DNA of 64,000 nt, from contig JANVFP010000002.1 of NCBI GenBank assembly GCA_027919835.1, forward strand, positions 558,001 through 622,000, written 5' to 3'. Positions within the stretch are counted from its first letter, which is position 1; every line of letters starts with the position of its first letter. This DNA comes from Lentinula raphanica. Taxonomy: Eukaryota > Basidiomycota > Agaricomycetes > Agaricales > Omphalotaceae. Made by a program: the position numbers and the translations under genes. This document shows positions 3,528-61,413 of the stretch, piece after piece. Under the pieces are notes generated by a model, which saw only the letters and a program-made list of their open reading frames with translations, did not search any database and was not told the origin of the DNA.

Positions 3528-3565
3528 TTTTTTGCCACCTCGTCATCACAACATATGTAATATAT

Positions 3566-28993: not shown

Positions 28994-29446
28994 GGTGCAG
29001 CCGTAGGAGAATGTGAAGGTTTGGATTCAAAGGCTTGCGAAGTGTCTGAGAAGAATCTTGATATCGATTGGGTGCATTACTTAAATAGCTGTGGCTTGAT
29101 GTTGACTGAATGAGCAGGACAAAGCGATCATTGTCGGGTGATTCGAATCCGGGTATTTTTTAACTGGGGCCGGCAGCCTGGTCTCCTTCCTATAGTATGC
29201 ACTACACCTCAGAGAGGCAAAATCATCAGCGAATTTTCACTTCAACTTCAACTTCAGCTTCGCAAAGCCCAATAGGCAATTTCAATCAAAGCTCCCCTGT
29301 CGGTAAAGCTCCTTCCTATGCCTACTTACAGGCCGGCTATCTAACAGTGCTTCTGCAGTAAGTACTAATGAGTTTGATACAGACAACAGTGTCATGGCTT
29401 CCAATAACACAGTACATAGTGAGATATGATGCTAGCAGATTGAAGG
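28994..29446. other. Intergenic region
   Basis: 453 bp between the dehydrogenase start and the end of esterase copy 1. It contains a short run of ttcaacttcaacttcagcttc (near 29240). Nothing else seen. Confidence 0.5.
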
Positions 29447-31819
29447 TCAGACCGGGTTCGCCAGTATGACCTTAGTCACCAAGCTCATAGCGCTCTCTCG
29501 ATAATCATCCTGAGAGAGACTCAAAGCAGGGAAACCATCATTGAACTGTAACATGTTGGGCGAACTATTGGTGTATTGTGGCCACTCTATTCCAGTATTC
29601 CCATTAGGATCGAGGTTTGCAGCAAAGCGGATGAGATAATCTGCCATGTCTCCTCCACCGTAAACGTTCAATGTATCGGTACCGTGAGCCTTAAAGTTCA
29701 AAGAGCAACGTCTGATGAGAAGAAGAGACTGTTGAGGAAATACCAGCTTACTGATCCCAGAACCGGTAAATCCTTCAATCGTTTGCTAACTTTGGGGAAA
29801 CTCAGTAGAGAGCGGTAATAAACAACCCGAGCCTGATTCGAAAAGCACGTACTGAAAGACCAGATAGGTTGTTTACCACTGAGATTCTGCAGGAAGAACC
29901 GACGAGGAGCTTGAAACGCAGCATCGCCTTGGAATGCAGAAATTCTCTTAAACTCGGGCGTGATAGCATTGTATATACTGGTGTTGAAAGGAGAGCCTTG
30001 AGTGATATCGGCAGGATACCCTGTCAACAGCTGAGCCAAGTCCGACTCTGATATCTTTGGAAACACTGTTCGAATATAAGTGGAGAGTTCGGATTGCGTC
30101 CTACGGATGGAAAACATTTAGTTGCCGCGTTTGTTTACCAGAAATAATGAGCCTCTTTACGTGATGTTCAAATTTGAGAGAGAGAACAAAGTACCTTCAT
30201 CATCACAATCGCCTGCGAGCGTATTTGACAATGAGAAGCCGAAGTTCGAACGCAGATTTGAGATACGTACCGCTCACGATTGGAATACTAGCTACCTGAC
30301 CTTGCTGTACCAATTTCTGTGGGTCGTCGGATAGTAATACACCATCCGCACGGGGAAGCCATGGAAAGTTAAGAGACTATTAGAAAGTCGATGATTACTA
30401 GTCACTCATGTACGACACATATCCTTACCTGATATGAAATTATACTAGATGCGTCAGCCACGGCAGCTTTTATGAGCGGGTATTCGACGCCTCGCATGCA
30501 ATTCAGTGTATCATTGGAGCCAGAACACCCTGTAGCTTCAACCATTGCATCGTAATCTACCACCGTCGTGATTCGTGAGCATAGAATGTTCAGGTCTTCG
30601 GATTATATTGTCAATCAAGCATTGCGCACATTTCTGACCATGGGTAATGTCTCCCACAGGGATGGGAGAACCCGACTGCATGAAACCTGCACGGAATAAA
30701 CACTCTGTGTCACCACCATTGGCAACCATATGCAATGCCACTGAAATAGCACCAGCACTTTGCCCCCAGCTTGTTTCAACAAATTGATATCGATAGCATG
30801 AACGGCAACACGAGTGACAGACCAATGTAGCACTCACATGGTAACTTTCTTTGGGTCTCCTCCGAACGCCTCTATGTACTTTTGGACCCATCTGAATGCT
30901 TCCCGTTCTGGTGATAGAAGAGTGAATTCTCGAGACATGATTTTTCAATCGAGTATCCTACTCACGATCTTGTAAGCCGAGATTTCCTACCCCTGCATCT
31001 TTGACTTCCTGACTGGCCAAAAATCCAAACGCTTCGAGGAACGTTGGGAATTCTCGCAATAACGACTAGGTTTAGACTAACCTGTCACTCGATAGTTCAT
31101 GGAAACATAAATCACGGGTTCGTCAAGTTCAATAGAACGCTGAACAATAGTCGCCCCATCATACCTAAATAGAACATGTAAATATGTTCTCGAATTCTGT
31201 GTATAACGTACATTTGAGGACCTCCCAGTTCAAAGCCACCTATCAAGAATTAGTGATCTCTCTAGGGCCCCGAGGTTATATGTAACATAGAACGATTAAT
31301 AACCTCCAAAGATCCACTGTTGTCAACTGAGTTTCAGATACACAGAAACCACAAGTTACTGAGAGCATGAGTCACATACCACGAGAACAGGTAGTTCAGA
31401 TGAGGCCGTTGCAGTAGCAGGTCTGATGACATTGATAGTAAGACAGTCCTCGTCGTCTGGGAATATAAAGCCATAGATGCTGTTTATAATGCAGTCGATG
31501 ACCTCGTCTGGAAGTCCTGACATATTAGGAAGATGCAGGGGTTGTTGGGGGCATGCAGGACCCATCGACGTTGCAGAGAACGACATATTATACGGCAGGA
31601 TGGGCTGCGGGAGATTGAAGCGAAGAGGGCCGAGGCTACACGACGGAGTTGTCAGTCAATAGGACGATCATTTGAACCTATATGAACATCAAAAATAAGA
31701 ACAATCATACGGAGGCTGAGCAAAGGGTATGCCCAGGAATTCTTCAGTATCTCCCGACCTAACGCCCGTTACGGTAGCAGAGTCCAGTACAACAGTGGGA
31801 CTGGCGAGGGGACTGGTGG
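29447..31819 (-). pseudogene. Type-B carboxylesterase copy 1, body; disrupted at its 5' end
   Basis: The exons match esterase copy 2 (40842-43217) block by block. Examples are SMGPACPQQPLHLPNMSGL, GFIFPDDEDCLTINVIRPATATAS, ESDLAQLLTGYPADITQGSPFN and HGTDTLNVYGGGDMADYLIRFAANLDPN with the catalytic His. The nucleophile motif is GQSAG instead of GESAG; the Ser is kept. All these exons remain open. The first exon is cut at 31819, where a 6.76-kb transposon begins; its remaining codons lie at 38588-38638. A second transposon sits in the start codon. So the gene has lost its signal peptide and promoter but little else, and was inactivated recently. Confidence 0.9.
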
Positions 31820-31965
31820 TAGACTCGTACCCAGTCGGCTAGTACGGCCCGGTGACGTTCGATGACAAGTCGATCGAAGTACGGGCTCGAAGAGCCGACT
31901 GGGCTCATTTAACCGTAGTTTAGTAGAGATGGTTTTAGCGCTCGTTGAATAAAATAACTTCGACG
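31820..31965. repeat. Left terminal inverted repeat of the helicase/DUF6589 element
   Basis: Mirrors 38430-38578 imperfectly. Shared tracts include tagactcgt-cccagt, cgactggg, tttaaccg, agatggttt and gaataaaat-acttc. It also contains its own hairpin: cccagtcggct near 31830 pairs with agccgactggg near 31893. Confidence 0.85.
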
Positions 31966-32142
31966 CGAAAAATATACGACCTGTACAAACCTCTACCGAT
32001 TCCCTCAAAACGCGCTCAATCTCTTCGTATTGAATCATCGGACCACCTAGCGAAGTCCGAATTTCTATTCATACGTTTTGTATTGAGTTATTCACGCGTT
32101 TATGTCAGGTGTTCCCTGGTGTTCCCAAGCTTTCCCGCCGAC

Positions 32143-34814
32143 ATGCCTTTTGTTGCGTTGACTGAAGTCAACCCAATAATTGCTAGGCAGGCCGAGTTCT
32201 CACTCTGTAACACATTCGACATCCCCGCTCTGCATGACTTTCAGATACAAGCCGGTCATAATGTTCTGAAGGGAAGGAATACCATTCTAGATGTACCTAC
32301 TGGAGGAGGCAAAACCCTCGCTTTTTTCTACGCTCTCTTCTACTATTGGACCCCCGGTACCTCATATCAACGGACCAAGAAAATAACACTCGTCGTTAGT
32401 CCACTGGTTGGGTTGATGGAGGCGCAGGCAGAGCTGTTGAATGAGAAGGGAGTGCCTGCGATAGCCTTGAGTTCATCAACTCCAAACTTGGAGGCTGCAC
32501 TAACGGTACGTGGTTTTGAGGTATCTCTTGTTCCAGACCAATAATCTCTCTTTGACTGATAGGATTTTGGGAATAACTCGTATCGTATTGGTTTCATTGG
32601 GCCTGAAATGGCTCGTAGTCCCTTGTTCCATAAACGAGTGGTGGAATGCCCAGCCTTCCAGACCAATCTCATAGCTGTCAACATAGATGAAGGTCACTGT
32701 ATATCTGAATGGGGAACTGATGATTTCCGCTCGGATTATGCTCGCCTCTCTGAACTGCTTGCCAAACTCCCAAGCGACGTCCCTGTTCTCACTGCTTCTG
32801 CAACACTTGCCCCCGAAGTCATACAAGATATCGAGATGAAATTAGGCCTTGGGCGAAAATGCGAGCGCATCTCTGTATCGAACGAGAAACCGAATGTTGC
32901 TATATCTGTGCGGATCATGCAACATCCGCAAGACTCATTTGCCGATCTCATATTCCTATTCCCAAATCAACCTACGCCCAACGCTGAGGACTTTGATCAA
33001 ACCCTGATATATGTCAACAGTCGGCAAGAAGCAGAGCAAATCCAGGATTTCTTACGAAGACATTCACCGGAATCCATTCCAAAAGTGGCGTTTGAATTCT
33101 TTCATCGATTCATTGACCATTCCGACAAAACAAAGATACATGAAGGGATCTCAAGTGGCCGCTTACGTGCAGTGTCTGCTACTGATGCTCTCGGAATGGT
33201 AAGTCATAGCTGGCTCCCTGGCTCACTTCCACTACACTAATTGACACATATTGGGTAGGGACTCGATTTCCGTAAAGTGAAATGCGTTATCCTGTGGATG
33301 GCTCCGCGTACATTTAATTCCCTTATACAGAAAATCGGACGCTGTGCGCGTGTCTTCGCCGAACTTGGTGAAGCTGTTCTATTCATCACTCAAAGTGCAT
33401 TCAAGCGTTTTGCGGCCGAGTTTGAGCTTGGCTGCGAAGATCAGTCTGCACCTGAATGGGAAGCTGTTGGGTCATTGGGAGAAGATGGAGAAGATGGAGA
33501 GGATGACACAGAGGAAGATGAACAAGATGGTCCGCTTGAGTCTATCACAGAGCCGGATGAAGGAGAGAACGATGAAGATGAAGAGCCCCAGAACAAGGAC
33601 GCTAGTGATCATACATGCCCGACATTCCGACGAGTCAGGCGCAAAAAATTCAAGACCTATATCGAAGCTCGTGACCAGTGGTTCCTTGCATGGTTTGTTG
33701 TTACCGAGGAGTGTCGCCGCATTCCTTGGAACAAATTTTACGGTAATGATTCAAAAGGTATGAGCATGCTCTCGCTTACCTTTCTTTGGTTCTCACTACA
33801 AGATTAGAAAAACTTCCATTGGCCGTTACACCCGCTCAAGCACGCTGCTGTGACAACTGTGAACCAGCAAATTTTCCTGTCAAAACCGTCCGCCTCACCG
33901 ACCCTGCACAACTTCAGGTTCCAAAGCGGCTACGGAAAAGTTCAATCGAGCTCTATAGTGCTGTGGTCATCCGCCTGCAAACCATGCGCGAAGCCATTGT
34001 TGACCGTGTGTATGGGTCTGTTCAGGGCCTGATCACAGGCAAGGCCATCCTTTCGGATGAAGTCATTCATACACTGGCAGAACGTGCTCGAGCTGTCACA
34101 ACACTCCCTCTACTTCAACAGCAGGTGCGCTGGCACTTTTCCTCGAGATATGGAGAAGAAGCTGTGGCCGCAATCAACGATGTTGTTTCTCAGTTCCGTG
34201 ATCCCGCGGAAGAGGTCCGTTTAGAGCGTTTAAGGGAACAAGCCTTCAAGAGACTCTCCAACATAGCCAGACAAGATTTTCGTGCAAAACTAACAAGGAT
34301 TTCAGATGCTTGCTTTGCGGCTGTTGAACGAGTTTTACGAATGGATGACTCCGGTAAATCTGTCAAGTTATGCAAACCATTTCTCTCACTTCCTCGCCGC
34401 AATGTATGTATTACATTGCTTGTTCATTTATATATCATTTTGAATCTTATACAGGTACATCCGGGATACTATATCATCAACGAGCGGCCAATTTCGATGG
34501 CCAATATCCGGAAAAGTGTTGTCCGTGGAACTGTATACTCATCAGTTGAAGCATATGCCGAAGATTGGCATTGTATGTTCACTAATGCTCGCCGTTATAA
34601 TGAAGATGAATCCCAAATATACCGAGACTCTGTATCACTGGAAGCTGTTTTTGACTTTACCCTTGTTAATGCTGCAAGAGAAGAGCAGCTTCCCTTCGAA
34701 GGTGGTCTGATGGTACGTACAGTTGTTTTTCATCCATGGCTTGTTGCTCAACTACCGCAATGGTTTACAGACAGTGTAATGTAATTGCAGACTACAAGTA
34801 TCAATCAAACATAG
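32143..34814 (+). CDS. RecQ-family helicase fused to a C-terminal bromodomain
   Basis: Six exons (32143-32505, 32563-33198, 33259-33757, 33808-34403, 34455-34712, 34791-34814) give about 791 residues. Helicase motifs in order: Walker A PTGGGKT (~res 50), DEGHCISEWG (motif II, the usual DEAHCISQWGHDFR), LTASATLAPEV (III), TLIYVNSRQEAEQI (IV), ATDALGMGLDFRKVKCVI (V), and IQKIGRCAR (VI). A strongly acidic linker (EDGEDGEDDTEEDEQDG) follows. The RecQ zinc region is kept as ECRRIPWNKFYG ... RCCDNC. The C-terminus, about residues 663-770, is a complete bromodomain: ACFAAVERVL, FLSLPRRNVHPGYYIINERPIS and DWHCMFTNARRYNEDES with the acetyl-lysine-binding Asn. An earlier in-frame ATG (31945) would start within the left TIR and is unlikely. 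An alternative last acceptor (34770) would end at 34779. It lies tail-to-tail with the DUF6589 gene, whose stop overlaps this one by 14 bp. Confidence 0.9.
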
Positions 34815-37800
34815 AATCATCAAATTCTTCAATGAAGTCTCTAATCTGCTCGAGTGCATTGTAAGGCTCCTCCTCATCAGGAAAAATATTTTCATCTCTA
34901 GAGTCCCCAGAGATACCCCCCAATTCCTAGGCTGCTCAGAGATTTTTGTGAACTTTGAAAGATCAAAAAACATCCTAGAGATCCTGAAAGATCCTGAAAG
35001 CATCTGAAAGCACCAGAAAGCACCAGAAAGCACCCAGAGAATTTTTAGAAGCCTCAAAGAACTCAGATACCCTAGGCTCTCTGAGACTACCTAGGAATTG
35101 GGGGGTATCTCTGGGGACTCTAGAGATGAGAATATTTTTCCTGATGTCATCAACTGCAAGATCATCCAAGGTGACTTCGTAATCTTCATCAGTCTCCAAT
35201 TCTGAATTAGACATCATGATGTCTGCTGATCCTACATTCTCCACAATCCTAGTATCTTCCCGGAAAATCCTGAATGCATCTCGCTTGTTCGGATACTTAC
35301 TTCCTTCCTCAAATAGATCCCGGACTAGTTTCTTCATTCCGTTTGTCAGTCGATTGGCAACGTAGGACTGTATCTTCTCCTCTTTCAATGCATCTGCCAA
35401 TGCTGCTATCTCGCGTGTCATATCTGGAACTGTATGCTTCGTACTGAGATCAACAATTTTGAACTCAGTTTGAACCATGCGTATTGCGTTTCTGAGTTCA
35501 AAAATGATAGGTGTGATCATGGCTAACCAATCCCAGCTTCGATTTGAACCTTTGGCGTTGTAGATGATCTGCACCAGAGGTCATGAATACTGAGAAAGTG
35601 AGTTGCAAGTTTGATTCTTAGCATACCTTAGCCCAGAAATTCTGATGCTCTTGTAATAGGTCCACCTCCTTCCACCGTTTCTCTTTGCCTGTAACATTCA
35701 CAAGCCAATTGTGAAGGTAGAACTTCCTATAAATCAGTGAGTAGATACAAGGGCGGCAGCAACAAGTGACTGACTTGAGAGTTTCAGGATAGGTATTCAA
35801 GCGGCCCAGTGTTTCGAAAAATGCATCAGCGTATTTTGGCATGGTCTTTTTAGCACGCATCATGACCATCCACACTCTGAAGACATTAACAACACGTCCT
35901 ATATCTCCACTTTTTATAGCGTCCACAATTTCAATGTACAGCAATGTGTCGCGGTTCTGGAGAAGATTATTCAAGTACGTCGTATCTTGATTTTCGGAAC
36001 TTTTAGCAGCATCAAATGAGCGTGTAGTGAATAGGTTTTCATAAACCAAGTCCGAGACATGAATGAAATCATCGGAGGAAGCTGAACGAGCCCATTGATC
36101 AAGGTCCTCGATGCCACAAAAGAGTCGGAAGCCATCACTGATATGTGCAGCAGCTGAGATCTGAAGCAGTTCGTGCGAGGGTTTCCAGGGTGCAGCTTTG
36201 GATGATTGCTATCCTGCGACCATATTCTTCCTGCCAAGCTTGTTGTTCTCCCACCACAAACCCCCCGCATCTTTTGATTGAGGCTGACCCCAATGTTCAT
36301 TGATGATCATACGGCATCCCGATGCCTTAGCATGCCATATTCCAAGACGTCGCAGGTTACCCTTCATTCCATTGATGGGAAGTGGGTTATTCCGTCGTGC
36401 TGATTCTACCTTTGAGATTCACACATGAGCAGTTAGGTAAAGACTTATACGAGTACACAGATACCTTGTCAACTAATGAATCTGTTAACAGATCACCGTC
36501 AGTGAACATGATCCCATGAGCAATCAGATCATCGTTCGATACTTTGGCATTCCGCAAGATCGTTTCGAAGACCCGGATGGTGCCATCAATCGAATTCTCC
36601 TCCTCCTTCATCGCTGGTAATGGATACTGTTCAGTTTTGTGAAGTTCAATCTTGTCAACCTCGGGACAACTACCGAATGACGATTTGAGGTGTGCCAGTC
36701 CTGGAATTATATCTGTCGCTATCCGTCTCAGTTGCCACTTGCAGCACTGTGTGATGCCCTGGATGACATCGGGAGAGGGTAGAATAGCATCATTGGTGAA
36801 GTCAAATATAGGATTCGTTGTATTGCGAGCTGGCTTCATTGAAAGTGGGAGCGTTCCGTGGGGGGTTTGGCATGATTTTGTATAGGGGTTAAAGATGGGA
36901 ATGAGGGTTGCTGTGGTTCCATTATCAAAATGATCTTTCGAGTCGAGCCGCTGGGATCCAACGCGAAACTGGATACACAGATTGTCCCACACAAGTGAGC
37001 ACATTTGTTCTTGTACTATCCGCTGGTATCTCTGAACTGCCTCATTTGAGAGGGTTTTCATGTGTTTGATTGTTGCAGGATACGAGAGGGAGATTCCGGC
37101 ATGGTGAAAGACCTCCATCGTACGTTTAGATGTCCCCGAAGCAATCAAGAACATTCCAATCACAGCTTGAAAGTTATTGGCTCGTTGCGAACGAAGCACT
37201 GCAAGCATAGCACAAGTGGTTGCAAGCACCTTCAAGCAAAAGTTCATGGTTAGTATATGTGTTTTCAGATGATAAGAAGATCGCACTAATTCCATATCTC
37301 GTTGTGTTTCTTCAGTGCGTCGACCAGAATTGGTGGCAATAGCCTCTAGACTCTCCCACAATACAGGTGCCTCTTTCTTGAGCGACTCGATTAGCGTTGA
37401 GATAGAGAATTGGATGAGTAAGTCCGACATTTTTGTTGAGTTTTCGCGCGTCAAGAGTTCCTGGATTGCCTGACCTTCTTTCGCTAGGACTCTCTGGATT
37501 TCCTCTGAGAGGATGACATCTGCAACTTCGGGAGCTCTTTTCCATACGAAACGGGTAAGATCACATCCTTTGCTTTGGGAGAACCGAGTCAGCTTGGCCT
37601 CAACCTGCTGATCAGAGGGAGTGTCGGAATCAGTAAGGGCTTCAAAGAATTCACCCAAACTTCGAAAGTTGGCACCATCCGAGCTTGTGATATGCCGGAT
37701 GACATTGTAGGCCCTCTCCTTCCTCTCAATTCTCTTGGCTTCTCGAGCTGCCAACCGTACTTTATCCATCTGTTTTGTGCGTATTTTTCTTTGAGCCGAC

Positions 37801-38240
37801 AGCTCCATACTTGCTTCTAGCTTCTGACTCCGCATAATGGACCAGGCAGAACGTGTTCGAGAGATTCTCCGAGGACTTTTCTGAGGACGCCCAACACCGC
37901 GAGGCTTTACGGGACTGACTAGCATTGGAGATAGGGGTAAGTCCAAGCTCGGATCTGAAGTCATTGCAGCCACAGGACTGGCAGGTGGGCGAGGGGTAGG
38001 AAATAAGGGAAGTGGTATGGATTTGGCTGGAGGAGTGGTGGGACCCTCTAAATCATCAGGAAGAGGCTGCGTCGGAGAGCTAGGAAGACTGGCAGTTGCT
38101 TCAAAAAGACTAAGCTCGTTTGTATCAGGCTCGTCCAGTTGGAGGACCTTTCCTGATGTCAAATGCTGTGATCTTCTACGCTTTGATGATGTAGACTCAA
38201 CATAGGTTGGGTCAGAGAGCTTTCGCTTGCGAAATCCCAT
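34801..38240 (-). CDS. DUF6589-domain protein, candidate transposase
   Basis: First exon 38240-36465 (about 592 codons), then 36409 onward, then KFYLHNWLVNVTGKEKRW, the QEHQNFWAK/IIYNAKGSNRSWDWLAMI join, and a tail to 34801. The N-terminus is basic and disordered with a GRP AT-hook-like core (PRGVGRPQKSPRR, ~res 113-125) and a basic coiled coil. The DUF6589 part begins near residue 340 (LRSQRANNFQAVIGMFL, RTMEVFHHAGISLSY). It carries invariant-looking acidic sites: VWDN (~419), FTDGDLLTD (~581) and LLQEHQNFW. An in-frame 57-nt stretch near 37240-37300 with tactaac looks like a further intron. One in-frame TAG (~36213) needs either a 60-nt intron with a weak donor or is a nonsense change. The biochemical role is inferred, not known. 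Confidence 0.82.
34875..35146. repeat. Inverted repeat (MITE-like) inside the DUF6589 gene
   Basis: Arms of about 65-70 bp, starting catcaggaaaaatatt, face each other over a spacer of about 130 bp made of short repeats (gaaagcaccagaaagcacc). On the minus strand both arms are open in the DUF6589 frame, and a GT..AG intron (donor gtatctgagt, acceptor cctag) can remove the loop. The reading then resumes to GDSRDENIFPDEEEPYNALEQ. Clear target duplication not found. Confidence 0.75.
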
Positions 38241-38429
38241 CTGAATGAAGTGGTACGGAATGGACGATGCTGAAACCTTTCGAGGAATGTGGAATTGAAA
38301 TTCCTGTCTAGCTTAGCAAATAATAATTTTTTTCAAATTCGGTCTTCGTAGCGTTTCTTAGAATCTCAGTCGGCACCTGCTGTCCAAGGCGCAAGTAAAA
38401 CGAAGACTCTTTGTACATCTTGCTTTCGA

Positions 38430-38578
38430 AAAAAATTGAAGTCATTTTATTCGACGGGCGCTTAAACCATCTGTACTAATTACCGGTTAAAGTTTCCCAG
38501 TCGCCGCGTTCGCGGCTCTTTTTGATCGACTGTCATCAATCGACGCGCGAGTCACTCCGGCCACTGGGGACGAGTCTA
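38430..38578. repeat. Right terminal inverted repeat of the helicase/DUF6589 element
   Basis: Inverted partner of 31820-31965, ending cgagtcta at 38578 and followed by the target duplicate gactggtgg. A GC-rich palindrome (gccgcgttcgcggc, near 38503) replaces the left-end hairpin. Confidence 0.85.
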
Positions 38579-38587
38579 GACTGGTGG

Positions 38588-38638
38588 CAAGAGCCAGGCA
38601 CACCTCAAGAACGAGAGTGAAGATCCTGAGACTCAACA
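38588..38638 (-). pseudogene. Orphan 5' end of esterase copy 1
   Basis: This 51-bp sliver, between two transposons, matches the start of esterase copy 2 (43166-43217): ctcaagaacgagagtgaagatcctgagactcaaca versus ctcaagaacgatggtgaagattctgaggctcagca. On the minus strand it encodes the signal-peptide start (LSLRIFTLVLEV-like). The ATG itself is split by the next element. Confidence 0.88.
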
Positions 38639-39890
38639 CACTAGGTCAGAGGGCAATTAGTTCGTGTGGGATTATTGAGGAAAATAGTGGTGTCAATTAC
38701 AAATAATTTCCCAATATAGTTCCTGGACTATAATAGATAAATTTCACACAGCATAAATGTTGTTAAAATTAATTTATTTCTCAATTTTTATCAGGCATAA
38801 ATAATGGTGATATAATTGATTATTTTCATACGGAATAAATGCATTTTTTCAATAGTAATCTGAGTTTAATCTCTCTGGTAATAAATTATATAATATTCAT
38901 CAAATTTCATAGAATTTCCCTTTCATGATTTAGTCCTTTTTTCACCTGTAAAAGGTAGTAAGATTTTTAGTATTTTCCCTTTGTGATAAGCAAGTTATTT
39001 CACAAGTGATACACAAAGCCCAATGACTGAGCAACAACTGGGCATGAAACTGGGGATATTCCAGTTTTGATTACTAATGAATTTGCAAGGATGATTTTCC
39101 TTTTTGGGAAAAGAAAGTGCTTGAGCGCTTATTTTACAATGACTAAGCTACTTTTGCAAGTGTATGACTAAGCATCTGCATTTGACTGACATCTTAAACT
39201 TCCTCCTTCAGATGTTGTTGCTTTGGCCTCAACTTCCAAAGTCCTATAGGTGCACAACATTCCAAGAAATCTCTAAAGATAGTGTAGCTATTTTATATTT
39301 TCCCAAAAAAAGAAACTTATCCTAATTTACGTACTCAAGTGCTTCTTGGAAATTGATAGAGTAATCAAAACCGGAATATCCCCAGTTATGGGAATTGATA
39401 TATTAATCAAAACTGGAATATCCCCAGTCATGGGAATTAATATAGTAATCAAAACCGGAATATCCCCAGTTTCATGCCCAGTTGCCCTCAATGCTTGCCC
39501 AGTCATTGGGCTTTGTGTATCACTTGCGAAATAACTTGCTTATCACAAAGGGAGAATACTAAAAATCTTACTACCTTTTACAGGTGAAAAAAGGACTAAA
39601 TCATGAAAGGGAAATTCTATGAAATTTGATGAATATTATATGATTTATTACCAGAGAGATTAAACTCAGATTACTATTGAAAAAATGCATTTATCCCATA
39701 TGAAAATAATCAATTATATCACCATTATTTACGCCTGATAAAAATTGAGAAATAAATTAATTTTAACAACATTTATGCCATGTGAAATTTATCTATTATA
39801 GTCCAGGAACTATATTGGGAAATTATTTGTAATTGACACCACTATTTTCCTCAATAATCCCACACAAACTAATTGCCCTCCGACCTAGTG
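38639..39890. mobile_element. CACTA-type non-autonomous element in the esterase start codon
   Basis: 1,252 bp with long inverted arms (about 437 and 447 bp). The ends read CACTAGGTC and GACCTAGTG and are flanked by the 3-bp direct repeat ACA (38636-38638 and 39891-39893). Terminal CACTA plus a 3-bp duplication is diagnostic for the CACTA/EnSpm superfamily. The esterase paralog shows the empty site (ctcagcatggac). AT-rich, no protein frame, so it relies on a transposase elsewhere. Confidence 0.9.
39361..39486. repeat. 42-bp tandem repeat inside the CACTA-like element
   Basis: taatcaaaac-ggaatatcccc starts at 39361, 39403 and 39445, spaced exactly 42 bp. The third copy is also the inner end of the right arm; the left arm has one inverted copy near 39060. 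Confidence 0.82.
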
Positions 39891-39893
39891 ACA

Positions 39894-40841
39894 TGGACTG
39901 GCAGTGCGAGGGATGTTGTAGGAAAACCTGAGAGCAAGACGAGCTTGAAGGGGGGTAATAATCTCTTATACAATGCCACGCCTCCTTCTAAATCATCCCT
40001 GCGCACCTGTTAATCGGTTACAACTCTTCTTCAATCTTGATAATCCTAGAGGCCTACTTAAGCTTTGCCACGGGTCAAGCCTTCATCGACAAGCCTATTT
40101 CCCAGTCTATATCTTTGTGGATTCGCAACTACTTAGACTGTGTACTCTGAACAACTTGAAGTTTTACCCAACGGTGATACAACCTGATACAACTCGGAGC
40201 CAAGTCCTGTGGCGAATTTATGTGATGTCAGGCAGAGAGAAATGAGATAAAAAGTTCAAGACGTGCCTCTATGAAGCTGTCCCAACGGAGAAAGTTCGAT
40301 GAAACACGGGCCAGGCTGTCTAAGGCTGTCTACCACACCTGCCAACAGACCAACCTAGAAGATAACCTCGAGGCACTACTCGTTCGCTGAGCAAATGGGA
40401 AGTCAAAGGTACTGGAAAGGCTTAGCCAGAAATAAGCGCCGTCACCTGCTTCCTGAGTGCTTCCAGGTGCTTCCCACGAGGACAGCATGACACTCCGGCG
40501 TGCGACTCACAACGACCACAAAAGACGAAACGATATCCAGCTATTAATCGAGTCAAGCGACATATGTGAGGGAGAGACTGATGCTTCCAAAAAGGTGTTC
40601 AGATTTGTTAGACCGCAAAGGTGGGAAGTGACACTCACAAGAGCCATTTGATAGTAAGTAGTAATGGGGAATGGCATGCCAATCTGAAAACATATACCAC
40701 ATCATTTGTCTGGAATTGTCCTCACATTTTCGGACTCATTTTGCCATCCTTTGCAATGGCCCACTATTCTTTTTCAGTAGTAAATATTAGTTTTGGTACA
40801 AAACGGCAGTACATAGTGCTGAGAGTCAAGACTTTCAGCGG
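39894..40841. other. Promoter relic of esterase copy 1 and duplication junction
   Basis: From 39894 the sequence continues the former 5' flank of esterase copy 1. It resembles the flank of copy 2, for example cacctgttaatcggtta against cacctgttaaccggta. About 40250-40400 matches the trehalase 3' end (see next feature). The rest, to 40841, is unique and without a gene. Confidence 0.7.
40205..40400 (-). pseudogene. Relic of the trehalase 3' end
   Basis: Shares ctgtctaccacacc, ccaacagaccaacc and ctcgaggc-c-actcgtt-gctgag with 43950-44055, the C-terminal exon and 3' flank of the intact trehalase. Only this fragment is present, with deletions. It marks the end of the tandem duplication unit. Confidence 0.75.
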
Positions 40842-43217
40842 TCAGACTGGGTTCACTAGCATGAGCTGGGCTGTGAAGCTCAATGCACTCTCTCGGTAAT
40901 TGTCCAGTGAGAGAGTCAATGGGATCAAGCCATCATTGAACTGTAGCATATTGGGTGAAGCAGTCGTATATTGCGGCCACTCTATACCAGTGTTACCGTT
41001 AGGATCGAGTGTCGCGGCGAAGCGGATCAGATAATCTGCCATTTCTCCCCCACCGTAAACGTTCAATATGTCGGTACCGTGAGCCTTGGAGTGTTGTCGG
41101 GTAAGAAGACAGTATGTCAAAGAGAATGCCAACTTACTGATCCCAGAACCGGTAAAGCTTTCAGCCGTTTACTAACTTTGGGCAGGCTTAGCACAGAGAT
41201 GACTTAACCACTTTGAGAAGCGCTTACTGAAGGACCAGATGGGCTGTTTACCGCTGAGATTCTGTAGGAAGAACCGACGAGGGGCTTGAAACACGGCATC
41301 TCCTTGGAAAGCAGCGATTCTCTTGAACTCCGGGGTGATAGCATTGAGTATACTGGTATTGAAGGGAGAGCCTTGTGTGATATCGGCCGGATACTCTGTC
41401 AACAGTTCGGCCAAGTCCGACTCTGATATATCTGGTAGAAACACCGTTTGGACATAGGTAGCAATATCGGATTGCGTCCTGATCGATGGAAAGTGTTCAG
41501 TTGTCCGCGCTTAATTACCAAATATTAATATTCACGTGTCGTTCAAGCTTGCAAGGGAGAACAAAGTCCCTTCATCATCACAATCGCCTGGGAGGATTAC
41601 GGTCATTGGCCAGACATAGACCATGATGTATACGAAGAAACTTACCGCTCACGATCGGGATAGTAGCCACTTGACCTTGCTGTACCAATTTTTGAGGGTC
41701 GTCGGATAGGAAGACCCCATCCGCACGGGGAAGCCATGCGAGATTCAGAGACTGCATCAATCTCTTCAATACTGAGACTAGGTTGCCAGTATGCGCATGA
41801 CGTACCTGATATGCAAATATGCCAGGTGTGGCATCAACTGCGGCTTTGAGCACCGAATAATCAACGCCTCGCAGGCAATTCAGTGTATCATCAGAGCCAG
41901 AACACCCGGTGGCTTCAACCAGTTCATCATAATCTGATATCTTCACTTTAAGCGTCCATCTTGACTTGAATAAAGCGGAGCGCACAAATTTGTCCGTCGG
42001 TAATGTCTCCCACAGGGATGGGGGAACCAGACTGCATGAAAGCTGCACGGAACAAACCCTCTGTATCACCGCCATTGGTGACCATATGCAATGCTGCTGA
42101 AATAGCACCAGCACTTTCCCCCCAGCTATTTTTTATCAAAACGTTTGTCGATAGCATAAACAGCAGCACGAGTGATGTACGATCCCAACACTCACATGGT
42201 GACTTTCGTTGGGTCTCCTCCGAACGCCCCTATGTACTTCTGGACCCATCTAAACGCTTCCCGTTCTGGAATAGAAATGCTAAACTCTCGAGACATGATT
42301 TTTCAATCGAATATCCTGCTCACGATCTTGTAAGCCGAGATTTCCTACTCCTGCATCTTTGACTTCCTGACTGGCCAAAAATCCAAAAGCTTCAAGGGAC
42401 GTTGGGAATTCTCACAATAACCACTGGATTTAGACTGACCTGTCACTCGATAGTTCATGGAGACATAAATAACAGGTTCGTCGAGTTCAATAGAACGCTC
42501 AACGATAGTCGTCCCATCATACCTAAATAGAACAAATCAGTATGTTCTAGAGTTCTGTATTTGTATAACGTACATTTGAGGACCTCCCAGTTCGAAGCCA
42601 CCTATGAAGAATTAGTGATCTCTCTAGGGCGAGGTTATATATAACATAAAACGATTAATAACCTCCGAAGATCCACTGTTAACAACAGAGCTTCAGATAC
42701 ACAGAAACCACAGTTTACTGAAAGCACGAGTCACATACCACGAGAACAGGTAGTTGAGACGAGGCCGTCGCAGTAGCAGGTCTGATGACATTGATAGTCA
42801 GACAATCCTCGTCGTCTGGGAATATAAAGCCATAGATGCTGTTCACAATGAAGTCAACCGTCTCAGCTGCAAGTCCTGTTAAAATCGGAAGATCGACGGC
42901 TTGTTGGGGGCATGCAGGACCCATCGACGTCGCAGAAAACGACGTATTATAGGACGGGATGGGCTGCGGGAGATTGAAGCGAAGAGGACCGAGGCTACAC
43001 AACAGAGTTGTCAGTCAGCAGGACCACCGTTCGAACATGAAAGAACTGGATCATCATACGGAGGTTGAGCAAAGGGTATGCCCAGGAATTCTTGAGTATT
43101 TCCCGACGTAACGCCCGTTACGGTAGCAGAGTCCAGTACAACAGTGGGACTGGCGAGGGGACTGGCAAGAGCCAGACCCACCTCAAGAACGATGGTGAAG
43201 ATTCTGAGGCTCAGCAT
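40842..43217 (-). CDS. Secreted type-B carboxylesterase/lipase, copy 2 (intact)
   Basis: Alpha/beta-hydrolase of the cholinesterase/Candida-rugosa-lipase family, hydrolysing esters outside the cell. The signal peptide is MLSLRIFTIVLEVGLALASP. The family opening follows as TVTGVTSGNTQEFLGIPFAQPP. Next are PQPIPSYNTSFSATSMGPACPQ and EDCLTINVIRPA. After short exons comes the nucleophile elbow in WGESAGAISAALHMV (Ser), FRAAFMQSGSPIP, the lid/acid region GDAVFQAPRRFFLQNLSGK, and the catalytic His in KAHGTDILNVYGGGE. Stop at 40842. About 12 introns. It lies head-to-tail with its broken duplicate and next to a trehalase. Confidence 0.92.
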
Positions 43218-51891: not shown

Positions 51892-52832
51892 AAACATACA
51901 CCTGCCGAACTTCAATAATACGTTCATAATCTTCAATGCAAGCTCATATCGATACACACGTTCGAGCATTCTCCGCCTATCAAACTTGGATTCAATGGTA
52001 CTGTCCTGTACTAACGGTAACAGATTCGACATTTTCTCGATCCGGGTAGCTCAGTCAAGGAAACGGGATTGAAATGGGTCGGGAGGGTACTCTGGATGTA
52101 GCCGGGGCATATCTTGGCGTGCTCTAAGACCGCCATCATGATGACTTCTGAGATTGGTGAATGTCACGTCGACCGAAGTGAGTATCGAGTATTCCTCGAA
52201 GGAAGCCAAAACAGCTAGATAACACGCACAATCAATTCATGCCGTTCATTCGGTTTCCGAAGTGAAGCTCTGTTGAATGTTCATTCAGCGATACCAAGAA
52301 TAAGATAGTAAGAGTTCTTCGGAATCTCAACTTTCAGCCTGCCTGCCTCGTCCTGCCTCGCTTCGACCTCGTACCGGGTGAGAACACTCTATCTTCTTGC
52401 TCAAGTTCAGACTCACTATGATTTTGACATGATATAGCACCAGCTCTTTGGGTTCCATGGCAGCATATTTTACTCATTGTTCGAATCGAGGTTCTTGACT
52501 ATCAGAATCTCCGATTTCAGAAATACCTCGATACGGGCCAAATCAAAACGATGTATTTTACAAGGTTCTTGCTATATAGGGGCTTTTTACATCGTACGTT
52601 CGGAGTATTCGCAAACACGGTCAATCTGAAATGAAGGTCAAGAAGCATCAGGGAACAAAACAAATCACAATCACTGCGAACTACAAGTTACAAGGTTTAG
52701 AAGAGTATTTGGAAAAAAGGAAGTGGCATAGTGGTCATGAAATTCGTGAGTCAAAAAGAACCTTATGGGATGGCAAGGAGGCTGGACTGTACGAACACCC
52801 GAGATCCTCTTACCTTTGTTCTGGACTACTCT
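51892..52832. other. Intergenic region
   Basis: About 940 bp. The stretch 52740-52832 begins the first segmental duplication unit. Two scattered short frames have no protein character. No RNA gene recognised. Confidence 0.5.
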
Positions 52833-55178
52833 CTAAGTAGTGGGCGGCTCCTCGAGCTGGTCTTCATCAATCCCGTCTCCGATATACTCGACTCCGAACA
52901 TGTTCTCGTGTATAACCGCGTATCTGAACCCATCTCCTGGCTGAAGCGGCGCATGACCATCCGGCTGCGGGTCCGTCCTATAGTTATTGAACTGCTGCCC
53001 CATCAATGCGCCAGCCCTTCGGTTATCCCCAGCCTCGATATAAGAAACGAGCGCGCCACTCCCGCCTTGAGACGCAATTGCCGGCGGATACTCATCTCGG
53101 TCCAACTGTCCTGTGGTTCCTGTGGCTCCAGAAAGCTCTTGCGTGGTGAGTTGGAGGAGCTCCCTCTGGGATTGGTATTGGCCCGTAGACTGACGTCGTC
53201 GAGTCGGTGCACCGGAGGGATCGTATGTCAGAACAGCGGGAAGGCCCATTTCATATACGCCTACACGAGCGTTTTCTACCGCAGCCGGAGTGTCTTCCTC
53301 GTAGAGGTAGACCAACCAATTGCCATCATCGTCCCGTCGGGGTACATCCAATGGCAAGACAGGCGGGCCAGGTTGGCTCGGTGTATCAGGGTCATCGGGC
53401 CTTCGGTATCGTAGACTGTATCCATGAGGTGGAGTTGGGATACCGGGCGGCGGCGTCGTCGTCGCAACTATGTTGTTTGCTACAGCGACAACCGCGGCTA
53501 TAATTCCTGGAATATTTGGATTTCCACATCGTTGGTCATCCTTCGGGTTGTGAGTGAGGATCCCCCCTTGGTCCAATGTTCCGACGACATAGCTGTGGCT
53601 CATGCTGACTATGTCAGGTTCCGCACTCTGGAGTTGGTCGCCTGACGTATCGGCTTTGATATCTGTCACATAGGCAACTGTCATACCCCCAGTCGGACTC
53701 CTTCCTCTGAGTCCAGCACCAACCCAAAGCATCCGTACAGGTATCCAGTAAGCAACGCGAAGGGTATCCTCTCCTACAGTCACATTGAAAGGATCGAGAT
53801 AAACCATCGTGTCTGGATGGGCAGTATATGACTGCGTGGTAACCCCGTCAGAGCAGAATGACAATATCATCCCTGAAGTGGATGTATCGTACTCAACCCC
53901 AGTCACGGCTTTTGCCTGGAAATTTAGGCCCTGAGGCGCAAAACTAATAGCCTTGGTCGTAGAGATTTGCCCCTCGAGTTGCTTCAGAGGAATCTGCGCT
54001 GGATTGTCGTCACCGGCAATCTGTACGATCATAGGAGTATCGAGAAGCCAGCCCGTAGAGCATGCCTCACTTCCTGCAGGAATTGTTGTTCCGTCCAGCA
54101 TTGCAAGATCCCCTGGGGCATTCCAGTAAGCATCTCCATCATTGTTATGGTTTGGTGTGATGATATATTTTGTGGTGTTGTTAGCAGGATCAAGCTCCTT
54201 CGCTTGAGATGTGATTGAAGCAGGCGCAGTTTCATCTGCGTAGGTCGTGACATGATTCATCGGAAACCTAATATGAATACGGTAAAGGATGCTTGGAGGC
54301 AGATCTGGTAGACTGACGATCGCATTCCACGCAGGGCCATCCACACGGGGAGCGCCTACGTCTATAGATTGCCATTGGATAGAAGGGATGGTATCACTTC
54401 CGTTGAAGAAAGTGGAGGGATTAATTCCGTCGGGTATCCACACCTGTTCTCCAAACGAGGTCATTTTGGTCTCGTCCATAGACGTTGTATAACGTGCAGT
54501 CAGGACAGGATTCCTAGCGATCGTGGGTCCGGCATTGTAGATGAGGAACGACAACGTCTCGGCTTGACCATAGGGTAGATTGTTGTTATAACGGGCTCGA
54601 CTGGAGGCGATTCGCAAATCACACTGCGATATTGCTTGAACATTGGTCAATCCGTTGAAGTCAAGGTTCCCGATGTCACCAGGAGTGTTCCAGTACGTCG
54701 AACCATCATTATGATGATTCGGTGTGATGATATATGTGGTGGAATTATTTGACTGGCGTGGATCAGAGGTGTTCGAGGTGACTGATGCAGTCGTGGTATC
54801 ATCGTCGTAAGACTCCTCATGAGTCATTGGGAATGTCAGACCGAGCTGCAGAATAGTGCCCGGAGACATATCAGGAAGAGTGGTCACCATGTTCCATCCT
54901 TCGTAGTGTGTCGATGGACTGGTGAGGTTCGTCCAAGTAAGCGAAGCCAGATCTTTGGATGGTTGTTTTCCTAATTGCTCCTGAGCTTTCTGAAGAAATG
55001 TGGAGACATTGTTGTAGTCCATTGAATGGGTGTACCCGGCTGTGACGGTCGGAGCTGAAGCTGTATCCGGGCCAGCATTGTAGATGTAAAGTGTGATGGT
55101 CTCGGAGTCACCATAGGGCTTGTCGTTGTCATAGTATGCTCTTTTGGATGCAATCCGTAAATCAGCGCTGGTAGTCAT
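52833..55178 (-). CDS. DUF11-like x2 / NucA-NucB nuclease-like protein, copy A
   Basis: A single intronless frame of 781 residues with a true ATG and no signal peptide. Residues ~4-168 and ~186-355 are two copies of one beta-sandwich repeat that follows the DUF11 pattern: ADLRIASKRAYY, ETITLYIYNAGPDTASAPTV, LPDMSPGTILQL and TTASVTSNTSDPRQSNNSTT. A novel middle part follows (QGLNFQAKAVTGVEYDTS; VRMLWVGAGLRGRSPTGG), then a Pro-rich stretch. Residues ~691-765 match NucA/NucB DNases: LDRDEYPPA, GGSGALVSYIEAGDNRRAG, and GDGFRYAV. The DRDE (693-696) and DNR (718-720) residues fit the family's catalytic block. Role is inference; a cargo or secreted effector nuclease is possible, but no export signal is visible. 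Confidence 0.8.
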   Translation of the reverse strand: MTTSADLRIASKRAYYDNDKPYGDSETITLYIYNAGPDTASAPTVTAGYTHSMDYNNVSTFLQKAQEQLGKQPSKDLASLTWTNLTSPSTHYEGWNMVTTLPDMSPGTILQLGLTFPMTHEESYDDDTTTASVTSNTSDPRQSNNSTTYIITPNHHNDGSTYWNTPGDIGNLDFNGLTNVQAISQCDLRIASSRARYNNNLPYGQAETLSFLIYNAGPTIARNPVLTARYTTSMDETKMTSFGEQVWIPDGINPSTFFNGSDTIPSIQWQSIDVGAPRVDGPAWNAIVSLPDLPPSILYRIHIRFPMNHVTTYADETAPASITSQAKELDPANNTTKYIITPNHNNDGDAYWNAPGDLAMLDGTTIPAGSEACSTGWLLDTPMIVQIAGDDNPAQIPLKQLEGQISTTKAISFAPQGLNFQAKAVTGVEYDTSTSGMILSFCSDGVTTQSYTAHPDTMVYLDPFNVTVGEDTLRVAYWIPVRMLWVGAGLRGRSPTGGMTVAYVTDIKADTSGDQLQSAEPDIVSMSHSYVVGTLDQGGILTHNPKDDQRCGNPNIPGIIAAVVAVANNIVATTTPPPGIPTPPHGYSLRYRRPDDPDTPSQPGPPVLPLDVPRRDDDGNWLVYLYEEDTPAAVENARVGVYEMGLPAVLTYDPSGAPTRRRQSTGQYQSQRELLQLTTQELSGATGTTGQLDRDEYPPAIASQGGSGALVSYIEAGDNRRAGALMGQQFNNYRTDPQPDGHAPLQPGDGFRYAVIHENMFGVEYIGDGIDEDQLEEPPTT

Positions 55179-55331
55179 CTATACAATGGTATTCGTCAAA
55201 GCTTGAACTCGTCGTCAACAGACATAGGGCCTACCGGATGAACTCTGGGCGAATATGTTCACTTGAAAGAAAAGCTCGACAACTCGAAGTTCGATAGAGC
55301 CTGAAGAAAAAGGGCACCCGACGTCCAGGCT

Positions 55332-55337
55332 TTTATA
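55332..55337 (-). promoter_or_regulatory. TATA box of nuclease-like copy A
   Basis: TATAAAAG lies on the minus strand about 155 bp before the ATG, in a tract aggcttttataatgttt that is identical in copy B. The distance suggests a 5' UTR intron. Confidence 0.45.
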
Positions 55338-56194
55338 ATGTTTGGATGATATTACCAGGACTTTATCGTCTGGCTTGCGAGTAGGAACATCCTTCAGCAG
55401 AGAACTCAAGCTCCGTCACCTCATGATAGTGGCTTTGAATTTCTTGCATAAGAAATTGTTACAGAGACGTAGCGCCTTTGGAAAAAGTGAAGAAGACTAA
55501 ATAGCGATAAGAAGACAAGAACTCACATATGCCATTCCAATCTCACCTTTCTTGTAGAGGTCGGGGTAATGTGTGGAGTTATGGAGCAATACTTACTGAG
55601 TCAAGACCGCCTTTGAAACCCTCCTTCTCATTTTGAAAAAGATCGAAAGCTTTTGCGATCGATTCGCCGTGCAAAACAGCCACCGAACAGTGTTCGGTGG
55701 TTTTGTTAATTCTTGTCTGCCCAGTATATTTGGGACTCGGGTGCTAGGATAGTAATAGAAGATAATCATGCATGCTGCAGAATGTATAGGAAACTCAAGT
55801 AAGTCTTTCTGGACGAGACCTACAGGATAATTCTTGCCATCTTGAAGGGCGGCTTAGCGCTCGGTATTTCGCAGCTGTGACTTTCAGCCTAACAAAATAG
55901 TAAGCCTCCTTTGGATAAATAGAAACTTTTAAATATGTAACTTACTCGAACCCCTTGCCCCCGCAATTTCAGGGCATGTACATTAACTAACCCGTGGAGA
56001 TTGGTTTGAACCTGGAATCCATAGAAGCAATCAGTGATCATATTCAATGCCTTCACCGGTTCTCACTCACATCGTCACATCTACCTGACACCGACGTAAG
56101 TGGAATCCGTTCTAGCTATCTGGCTGTCGTTCTACCTGATTTGGAACATTGACTTTATCAAACTTCATCCCATTGGTCAACTTGTCACTTGAGG
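55338..56194. other. Intergenic region within duplication unit A
   Basis: About 860 bp matching unit B upstream of its nuclease-like gene (60586-61413). It contains the 13-bp near-palindrome accgaacagtgttcggt at 55681. No gene. Confidence 0.6.
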
Positions 56195-57022
56195 TTACTC
56201 CAGACCACCCAGAAGCCGCTGCAACCATTCTACCTCCAATTTCAGTTGAATCATCGTCACTTCATCTTCGATACCCTCCACAGTGTTCCAATAGCTCTGA
56301 TCCCAGATACCACGTCACTTCATCCTGTTCCGCAATCGCGCAATTGTCTGTTCTATACATATTGCGATGGTCAGTGGGACACAGCTGACCAGCTGAATGA
56401 ACAGGCAATATCCTTTTCGGATGCAAGGAGGAGAGGATAGTGATATTTTCAGAAGGTGGGAGTTGATTGAAAGGAATGAGGGCCTTCGTTTTTCCGTGCT
56501 GTCTGTCAAATTCCAGGTTTGGTAGTGGGAGCTGAAGAAGCAGCCTTCCAAGATAATGCGGAAGAGATGGTTGAATATGGAGGCACAGAAGAATACCAAG
56601 CCTGAATCTTCACAGAATAATAATATTGACTTTCTCGTCGTTCGTTAGACGTAGGTAATGTCGTCAGAAAGCCTTGTGATTTGAATAGGGCCTGCTCTTT
56701 TCCGAGAGTCACTCTCTATGGATCTAAGCTTTGCAGCAGTGGCAGCAACAGACAGCCGATAGAATAGTGATCAAGAGCAGGAAGACTACATCACCCCAAC
56801 GACGACTATTGAAGTTTTGTTCTAATCCCTCTGCCATCTGGAGGGTACATGCTACATAGTAGAAAGCTCCTGGGGCTCTTCTTTCAGCAAGCTCCGAGAT
56901 AAAGCACTAATTTTTGAATGCTAAACGGCAAAATACCTGGACTGACTTGGGGTATGCTCAGAGAGTTGCGGCGAAAAGTCTGTGGTTTGTCCAGCAGTTA
57001 TTCTCCGTTGAACTTGGCCATG
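56195..57022 (-). pseudogene. Broken copy of the TM gene of unit B
   Basis: Aligns with 61414-62250 of the intact membrane-protein gene: TGGLE-like end LQRLLGG, NRMK, WKAASSAPTT, SKDHALYR-type block. Several frame breaks separate the pieces, and the signal-peptide and outer-domain exons (62320-62823) are absent, because homology ends near 57022. Confidence 0.8.
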
Positions 57023-58073
57023 GCTAGGATAGGCTCAACATAGTCCCATTGACTCCCATACCACTCACGGAGTAGTAGCTCTTTTTAGGGGGTGAGTAGT
57101 AGGGGCCTGGCTGGCCGTCTGGAGACTGGAAGTCAGGAAAAAAGAGTACTAAGAGTAGAGTCGTTAATATTTAGTCAGTGAGAACTTGATTCACGGTCAT
57201 GTGCAAATCATGTGTTAACAGTCACTGATTGAAATTTTTGAAAACACGTATGTTTTTAGCCGACGCGTCCATTATACGTATGTGAACATTTATGATTTAT
57301 ATTCTACTATGCCAGATCTCATACATACTTGTACCTCTGTGCAAGCTTTCTGAACCAAAACTGGAATGCATGCCCCGTTGTTACTCATGAGTTTTCCAGC
57401 CTGCAGAGAATCCATGAACTGTGGCAGCTAGCAAAGCTAGTATGAAACTCAGTTTGGACTGAATATTAACGCTGGGAGCTTGGCCTCGGGAAGAAGAATT
57501 AGCATCACTCTCAGAGCTTTCGATTTTGAAGAATCCTTTTTTGAGCAACTACAGTTCACAGTCATAGATTGCTGCGACTGCACGGAAACCTGGGTTAGCT
57601 ATTGGTTTTCATTTGATATCTTTGCAGAATTGCCACTCGATGCTCATGCCACAAGTGGTAGGAATAATCTCCGAACCTTGAGGTCAAAGTTTGGTCCCCC
57701 CACGTGAACCATCAGGCAATGTTCGGTCAAATTGCATGATTTTTGGCGAAAACGGGTTGGTCAACGACCATTTTCGAGGTTCAGGATCAGGCATCCCCAT
57801 CTATTATCATGGGTCCTTCCAAAACCCACAGAGGTCTCATTGAATCCATGGTAGTGCCAACGATACTACTGATAGTTCCTGTGATTTGCCTTTTTGACTG
57901 TCACCACATTTTTTTTTCCAATTTCAGAAACATTTCCTGGCTATGAGTTACAACGGTAAATACTAAACAAACCTAAACAAACCTTTCAAAACATGAAGGG
58001 GGCATAACAGGCATTTCAAACTTTGTAAGTGAAAAAGAACCTTATGGGATGGAAAAGAGGCTGAACTGCACTC
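57023..58073. other. Unique spacer between the duplication units
   Basis: 1,051 bp with no counterpart in unit B and no credible gene. It includes the small tandem actaaacaaacctaaacaaacc near 57963. Confidence 0.5.
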
Positions 58074-60419: not shown

Positions 60420-60579
60420 CTGTAGGGTAGTCGTCAAAATTTGAAGTCATCGTCAAAGACATGACTTTAGAAATACGTACCGGATTAACTCTGTGCAAGT
60501 AGTATGTTCACGAAGAAGAGAAGCTCGACGAGTTGAAGATCGATAGAGCCTGAAGAAAAGGGCACTCAACATCCAGGCT

Positions 60580-60585
60580 TTTATA
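60580..60585 (-). promoter_or_regulatory. TATA box of nuclease-like copy B
   Basis: Same ccaggcttttataatgttt tract as in copy A, about 165 bp before the ATG. Confidence 0.45.
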
Positions 60586-61413
60586 ATGTTTCAAGGATGT
60601 TAATACTTTAACATCTGGCTCGCGAGTAGGAACATCCTTGAGCAGAAAACTCAAGCTCCGTCACCTCATGATAGTGGCTTTGAATTTCTTGCATAACATA
60701 CTGTTACAGAGACGTAGTGACCTGAAAAAAAGTCAAGAAGAATGTATAGCGATCAGACAGAAGAACCCATAAGCCATTCCAATCTCACCTTTTTCGGGGA
60801 GGACTGGGCAATGTGTGGAGTTCTGGAGCAATACTTACTGAGCCTCTGACGATTCCTAGTTCTCATCTTGAAAAAGATTGAAAGGCTTTGCGATTGGATT
60901 ACTACCGTGCAAACAGCCACCGAACAGTATTCGGAGTTTTTGTTATTTTCTGCTTGGTCTATTTGAGACTCGGGTCCTAGGATGATAGAAGGTATTTGTG
61001 CATGCTGCATAATGCATAGGAAGCTCGAGTAAGCCCTTCTACGGGAGACCTACACGACAATTCTTGCCATCTTTCTGAACACAAGCGCGGCTCAGCGCTT
61101 GGCAATTTCAAGGTCTGGAACGCTTCAGTCGAGCCTACTTATCGGATCAATGAGTATGTAGATCCTTTGAATAGACAGGGACTTTTAGATATGCAAACCG
61201 CTATGTAAGGGCATGTACCTCAACTGGCCCGTGGTTGTTGAATTCAACCTGAATCCTCCTGAATCTAGAAAAGCAAACACTGATACCAATTGCTTTCACT
61301 CGTATCGTCACGCCTACATATACGCGGGATCTACGTAGGTGAGATTTCGTTCCAGCTGTCTGTCTGTTGCTACACCTGATAGAACGTTCAGTTCATTCCC
61401 AAGTCACTTTAGC
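60586..61413. other. Intergenic region within duplication unit B
   Basis: Counterpart of 55338-56194, with ccgaacagtattcgg at 60920 instead of the fuller palindrome of unit A. No gene. Confidence 0.6.

Follow-up and report, generated by a model that had tools for sequence, protein, structure and literature searches.

A Lentinula raphanica transposon that pairs a DUF6589 protein, a predicted DDE-type transposase, with a bromodomain RecQ-like helicase

In a 64,000-nucleotide stretch of Lentinula raphanica DNA (assembly GCA_027919835.1, contig JANVFP010000002.1, positions 558,001 to 622,000; hereafter the window, whose own coordinates are used unless a contig label is given), we found a transposon of 6,759 bp at 31820-38578 that has inverted ends and is flanked by a 9-bp target duplication without mismatch. 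Within the element, a gene for a RecQ-like helicase with a C-terminal bromodomain on the plus strand and a gene for a DUF6589 protein on the minus strand stand tail to tail. Our reading, to which we assign a probability of roughly 0.85, is that this is a DNA transposon in which the DUF6589 protein is the predicted DDE-type transposase and the bromodomain RecQ-like helicase its likely partner in transposition. The element quite probably belongs to AcademH, a lineage of the Academ superfamily reportedly described in Kojima 2020 (Mob DNA 11:15).

The borders were examined first within the window. As listed in Table 1, the two 16-bp terminal cores are inverted copies of one another at 15 of 16 positions, and the nine bases flanking them are the same on both sides. 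This agrees with the first-pass annotation, a model's reading of the sequence, except that the end similarity, there put at about 146 bp, was found to continue in a weaker, gapped form over approximately the first 170 bp. The window contains 4,920 pairs of identical 9-mers at distances of 1-12 kb; in only one of them, the pair flanking this element, do the sequences just inside match as inverted repeats at 13 or more of 16 positions, and the runner-up reaches 11/16. An empty-site paralogue, likewise announced at first pass, was located downstream of the element: the left flank (29445-31816) aligned with 40840-43165 at 81% identity and the right flank (38585-38635) with 43163-43213 at 88%, and with the element and one duplication copy taken out, the fused flanks aligned continuously with the paralogue, interrupted only by a gap of 3 nt within the target site. 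Because of this gap, 40840-43213 is regarded as a paralogous empty site and not as an exact allele. The gene interrupted by the element is likely carboxylesterase-like, as suggested by a minus-strand frame in the flank (31356-31655) that matched COesterase with an E value of 1e-13; one frame of the paralogue reached 20.2 bits for the same domain, below the cut-off of 27.

To the window we compared the L. raphanica genome, 49 Mb in 75 contigs (labelled C2, C7 and so on; the window is C2:558001-622000). The left 146 bp of the element was found at 12 places, being 100% identical over 146 bp at three (C2, C7 and C72) and partial or diverged at nine, and the right end was found at eight. A second full copy at C7:567327-573819, 98.9-99.2% identical by halves, occupied another site and had its own exact 9-bp duplication, GAGTCATTT. 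The C72 copy shares insertion and flanks with the window, at 99.55% identity over 5,575 bases up to the contig end; we regard it as either another haplotype or a recent duplication and did not count it as independent. Short elements with both ends and exact 9-bp duplications were present on C27 (150 bp), C13 (934 bp), C68 (130 bp) and C12 (C12:933624-933755, 132 bp). In the last of these, the duplication is separated from the left terminus by 8 additional bases that nearly repeat the end. The duplication of a C9 element agreed at 8/9, and inspection of the flanks gave no clear duplication for elements on C6, C14 and C54. Altogether, an exact 9-bp duplication was seen in 6 of the 10 two-ended elements of this group, termed family A, a count that omits C4, C23 and C7:908k (one end or part of one) as well as C72.

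The first-pass annotation had held that the element would not be a unit if other copies had different borders or all lacked the duplication; in this genome, other copies share its borders and have their own 9-bp duplications. Independent copies with the same borders, together with recurrence of the gene pair in diverged families (see below), thus indicate one transposon carrying both genes, as the annotation had proposed. Chance borders were rejected, given that the other full copy has a duplication of its own and that the pair is unique among 4,920. Helicases are a hallmark of Helitrons, which encode a Rep/helicase protein and have neither target duplication nor inverted ends. A Helitron-type, helicase-driven origin of the element is nevertheless hardly credible, and so is the idea that two unrelated genes lie between chance repeats: inverted ends and 9-bp duplications are present, independent copies end at the same borders, and a Pfam scan of the element gave neither a Rep nor a PIF1 domain.

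We then considered the two genes, whose convergent arrangement had already been pointed out. All domains exceeded their Pfam cut-offs: the window helicase scored 63.6 bits for DEAD, 53.8 for Helicase_C and 49.1 for Bromodomain, and the DUF6589 gene scored 67 and 163 bits for two pieces (cut-off 27). The helicase retains the motifs GGGKT, DEGH, SATL and QKIGRCAR; the solved relatives of its residues ~20-377 are WRN, RecQ1 and bacterial RecQ, and those of residues ~680-768 are the polybromo-1 and Rsc4 bromodomains. Its last intron and exon were placed by hand from the end of a database protein (P0053). The window copy no longer codes for an uninterrupted DUF6589 protein; the first-pass annotation had overlooked the in-frame stop and the nested element listed for this gene in Table 1. 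The C7 copy is without the window's stop codon and without its 272-bp miniature inverted-repeat transposable element (MITE), but has one stop in DUF6589 and one in the helicase, so that premature stops occur in both full family-A copies and neither encodes both proteins uninterrupted. Uninterrupted L. raphanica relatives are known, namely DUF6589 protein P0003 and helicase P0055, on contigs of equal size (68,849 bases). Between the C7 copy and window positions 35147-38578, the DUF6589 half, 26 of 28 differences were transitions, an excess that may point to deamination or to a process like repeat-induced point mutation. As for the MITE itself, the best 40 of 283 candidates were full or near-full copies with 95-100% identity (window and C72 included), one of them inside another DUF6589 locus at C7:592113-592384; its own duplication is ambiguous, being 1 bp, or TCATCA if CATCA is the target.

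Table 1. Features of the transposon and its surroundings in the 64,000-nucleotide window
Feature	Position	Strand	Basis or remark
Left target site duplication GACTGGTGG	31811..31819	.	9/9 identical to right copy
Left terminal inverted repeat, 16-bp core TAGACTCGTACCCAGT	31820..31835	+	15/16 vs right end
Extended left end	31820..31965	+	146 bp searched against genome
RecQ-like helicase gene, C-terminal bromodomain	32143..34779	+	Pfam and relatives
Helicase exons	32143-32505, 32563-33198, 33259-33757, 33808-34403, 34455-34712, 34771-34779	+	Introns inferred from GT-AG sites
DUF6589 gene, predicted DDE transposase, interrupted here	34801..38240	-	ATG at 38240, inferred introns; fold from relatives
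272-bp MITE with 57-bp inverted arms, near 3' end of DUF6589 gene	34875..35146	.	In C2 and C72, not C7
In-frame stop in DUF6589 frame	36209..36211	-	Absent from C7 copy, whose stop is elsewhere
Extended right end	38438..38578	-	Comparison of both ends and genome matches
Right terminal inverted repeat, 16-bp core (reverse complement TAGACTCGTCCCCAGT)	38563..38578	-	15/16 vs left end
Right target site duplication GACTGGTGG	38579..38587	.	9/9 identical to left copy
Uninterrupted flank paralogue (paralogous empty site), likely part of carboxylesterase-like gene	40840..43213	gene on -	Alignment

The predicted role of DUF6589 was derived from structure models. AlphaFold models of two DUF6589 proteins had DDE recombinases (Hermes, P element and RAG1) as their best matches and showed a predicted RNase-H-like core with a helical insert ahead of the last conserved acidic residue; furthermore, DUF6589 proteins carry conserved D, D and E. 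Because of this fold and these residues, the models suggest that DUF6589 is most likely the transposase and the RecQ-like helicase its partner. Other comparisons returned less: the DUF6589 profile gave nothing meaningful against PDB sequences (best E 0.27), the models reached only an E value of 0.027 or worse and a probability of at most 0.13 among the matches listed from a viral fold library, and the C/DxxH motif was absent between D551 and E798 of P0003, the sole protein examined for it. A 9-bp duplication alone would fit a MULE, and neither the window pieces nor P0003 and P0010 matched the MULE Pfam domain.

Two further families with other ends were recognized in the genome. Family B has perfect 16-bp ends, CAGACTCCTTCCCATC, and contains gene pairs at C27:452442-460461 (duplication CATTAATCC) and C13:606413-612456 (duplication ATGCTATAT). 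With up to 2 mismatches, its end pattern occurred 82 times forward and 75 times reverse in the genome, compared with 12 and 23 times for the reversed pattern. An exact 9-bp duplication was seen in 23 of the 26 family-B elements inspected, comprising these two pairs, C2:1862150-1868494, C55:53770-60156, 13 of 16 MITEs of ~500-560 bp, and 6/6 further elements; the three other MITEs had 8/9 (L067), 8 exact bases (L068) and an imperfect duplication (L063). Four long family-B elements (that on C55, C2:1038730-1046265, C2:256851-263407 and C12:499340-510441), of which the ends only were read, had no DUF6589 among the genome profile matches and may be deleted or decayed internally.

Family C is represented by C5:350242-356112 and C26:632709-638563, which have short ends starting TAGTCT and the exact duplications CAAATTTGT and GTGCTGAGG, respectively. 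A first scan at 10/16 matches missed these ends and a second look around inverted arms gave them, C5 as the top candidate and C26 as the third of six listed, picked for the sole exact duplication and for ends agreeing with C5; the family-C borders rest on this agreement and on a search of a few hundred positions per side. The right-end pattern was found at 3 genome places, 2 of them the known copies, and the left-end pattern, which did not fit the family's own sequence, at none. Taking the three families together, 31 of 38 two-ended elements inspected had an exact 9-bp duplication. No two of these 31 were alike; their ninth base was C in 17 and never A. The ends of families A, B and C share the form YAGWCT. 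Frames from one family-B and one family-C helicase showed helicase domains, with Helicase_C over the cut-off in each; DEAD in the family-B frame reached 20.6 bits, below the cut-off of 26. The bromodomain was absent from the frames tested (three of family B and one of family C), in which an exon may have been missed.

How regularly the two genes go together was assessed over the genome. A profile search with PF20231 (DUF6589) yielded 37 matches in 18 loci, and a helicase search yielded 31 matches in 24 loci. A helicase lay within 10 kb of 16/18 DUF6589 loci, in all 16 as a separate gene placed tail to tail; at the remaining loci, on C14 and C21, none was detected within that distance. Eight helicase clusters were unpaired and were tentatively taken for host RecQ-like or bromodomain genes. 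Both ends were inspected at seven DUF6589 loci (window, C7:569k, C13, C27:458k, C2:1866k, C5 and C26), and all seven lay within an element with an exact 9-bp duplication; ten others were seen as short pieces around the match, and C72 ends at the contig end. Given the 16 of 18 loci beside a helicase and the 7/7 inside elements, DUF6589 genes can likely be removed from host gene counts. In agarics these genes carry the database label hypothetical protein.

A similar association was looked for in other fungi, where 68 DUF6589 proteins were collected (52 from a first search and 16 new from an alignment search, each scoring the best 7,994 word-sharing candidates). By eye count against the best 120 of 402 helicases, 14 of the 68 were on contigs equal in size to a helicase-bearing contig, for example in L. 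raphanica (68,849), Gymnopus androsaceus (133,985) and Mycena galericulata (56,463), equal size being read as the same contig and not as adjacency. No animal DUF6589 protein appeared by name among the 7,994 best word-sharing candidates of the alignment search, a set in which absence means little. Among the matches listed, many relatives of the window helicase from Mycena, Favolaschia, Gymnopus, Lentinula and Schizophyllum have a bromodomain, which on these sequences looks like an addition in one branch of the helicases.

These data also bear on whether DUF6589 might be an accessory protein, with the transposase supplied by another gene and the pair being cargo of a non-autonomous element. Two observations favor this and count against our assignment: the frames are broken in both full family-A copies, so that the family would now depend on help, and the four long family-B elements mentioned above lack a listed DUF6589 match. 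Against it, the longest open frame outside the exons of both genes is 160 aa and overlaps a helicase exon, three families that differ in their ends all have the pair, and the models match transposases. An accessory role is therefore quite improbable, and carriage as cargo within another element was rejected for lack of a further long frame and for the recurrent tail-to-tail pair.

With DUF6589 as transposase, transposition might proceed as follows. The DUF6589 protein, whose predicted RNase-H-like core is divided by an all-helical insert like that of hAT and P transposases, would bind to YAGWCT-type ends and excise the element. It would then insert the element into target DNA cut with a 9-nt stagger; host repair would fill in the gaps and so produce the 9-bp duplication, and short internally deleted copies would be mobilised in trans by the same enzyme. 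Speculatively, the helicase may act by opening or remodelling DNA, be it at the ends, at the target or during repair, and the bromodomain may tether the complex to acetylated chromatin. A possible but doubtful extension is that a class of helicase-dependent cut-and-paste elements, with DUF6589 as transposase, is widespread in fungi, and that one branch of it uses a bromodomain on its helicase to steer insertion to acetylated, open chromatin. If true, this would be a eukaryotic DNA transposon with a chromatin reader built into its helicase, and were AcademH transposases unrelated to DUF6589, the class would be a superfamily of its own. Chromatin targeting is directly testable, because families with and without the bromodomain appear to share one genome.

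In the literature searched, neither DUF6589 by name, RecQ-bearing transposons of Agaricomycetes, nor Academ inverted repeats in Basidiomycota were found, and searches combining bromodomain with fungal DNA transposons, or RecQ with basidiomycete transposase, brought up, among the matches listed, work on Tetrahymena and on Helitrons, respectively. The assignment of DUF6589 as a transposase appears not to have been printed under that name in this literature, and AcademH work or Repbase may imply it. What looks new here is the role of DUF6589 as predicted DDE transposase and perhaps the bromodomain fusion; the fixed tail-to-tail pair recurring in three families of one genome is new as well. DUF6589 genes can likely serve as bait for further elements. 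With a predicted DDE transposase placed tail to tail with a RecQ-like helicase, these elements also offer a concrete setting in which to ask what a cut-and-paste transposon requires a helicase for.

Other repeats were observed in the window. Near the right flank of the element, 38639-39083 and 39435-39890 form an inverted repeat of ~456 bp with 95% identity. A 3-kb direct repeat (52828-55843 and 58070-61073, 85.6% identity), carried on at 56184-56789 and 61403-62004, is probably a further gene duplication, and an inverted repeat of 1,058 bp with internal repeats lies at 3536-4593 and 5183-6240 (99.3% identity).

The first-pass annotation had further proposed that the gene pair defines a new transposon superfamily. 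This is unsupported, because AcademH, with a helicase, 9- or 10-bp duplications and hosts in Basidiomycota, is already in print (PMC10045372, PMC10799480; these and the papers below were available in part). In those parts, AcademH elements are low-copy and occur in Basidiomycota, Ascomycota and Mucoromycota (PMC10799480), Academ is counted among the DDD/E superfamilies (PMC9587614), and the agaric Marasmius oreades has putative non-autonomous Academ elements (PMC8290104). The present elements resemble AcademH in the exact 9-bp duplications of 31/38 elements, in the helicase (DEAD and Helicase_C in the window, Helicase_C in one element each of families B and C), in the predicted DDE fold with its conserved D, D and E, and in the basidiomycete host, a likeness drawn from published descriptions. 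The family-A bromodomain fusion and the DUF6589 label are absent from those descriptions as quoted in the parts of citing papers available. This absence, the lack of DUF6589 by name in the literature searched, and the best fold matches to hAT and P transposases would suit a separate DDE superfamily in which a RecQ-like helicase and 9-bp duplications had come together independently; such a superfamily is unlikely, since the elements agree with AcademH in duplication length, helicase and host range alike.

KolobokH is likewise a fungal DDE lineage with a RecQ helicase, and makes a 4-bp TTAA duplication (PMC9587614). It was rejected, membership being very improbable: in place of TTAA there are 9-bp duplications, the 31 exact ones all different, the elements have TA or CA at their termini, and their genes converge. 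The closest solved folds to the DUF6589 models, including the helical insert before the last acidic residue, are those of hAT (Hermes) and P transposases, to which the DUF6589 profile had no sequence match. Both hAT and P elements make 8-bp duplications and are not known to have a helicase partner. The C/DxxH motif between the second D and the last E, which is described for hAT, P, MuDR, Kolobok and Dada (PMC9587614), is absent from that interval of P0003. Within the Academ superfamily, AcademX differs from AcademH by 3- or 4-bp duplications and a nuclease in place of the helicase (PMC10045372), duplication length there being tied to the choice of helicase or nuclease. The DUF6589-helicase pair also gives access to the question why Academ lineages with a helicase make duplications of 9 or 10 bp and those with a nuclease duplications of 3 or 4 bp.

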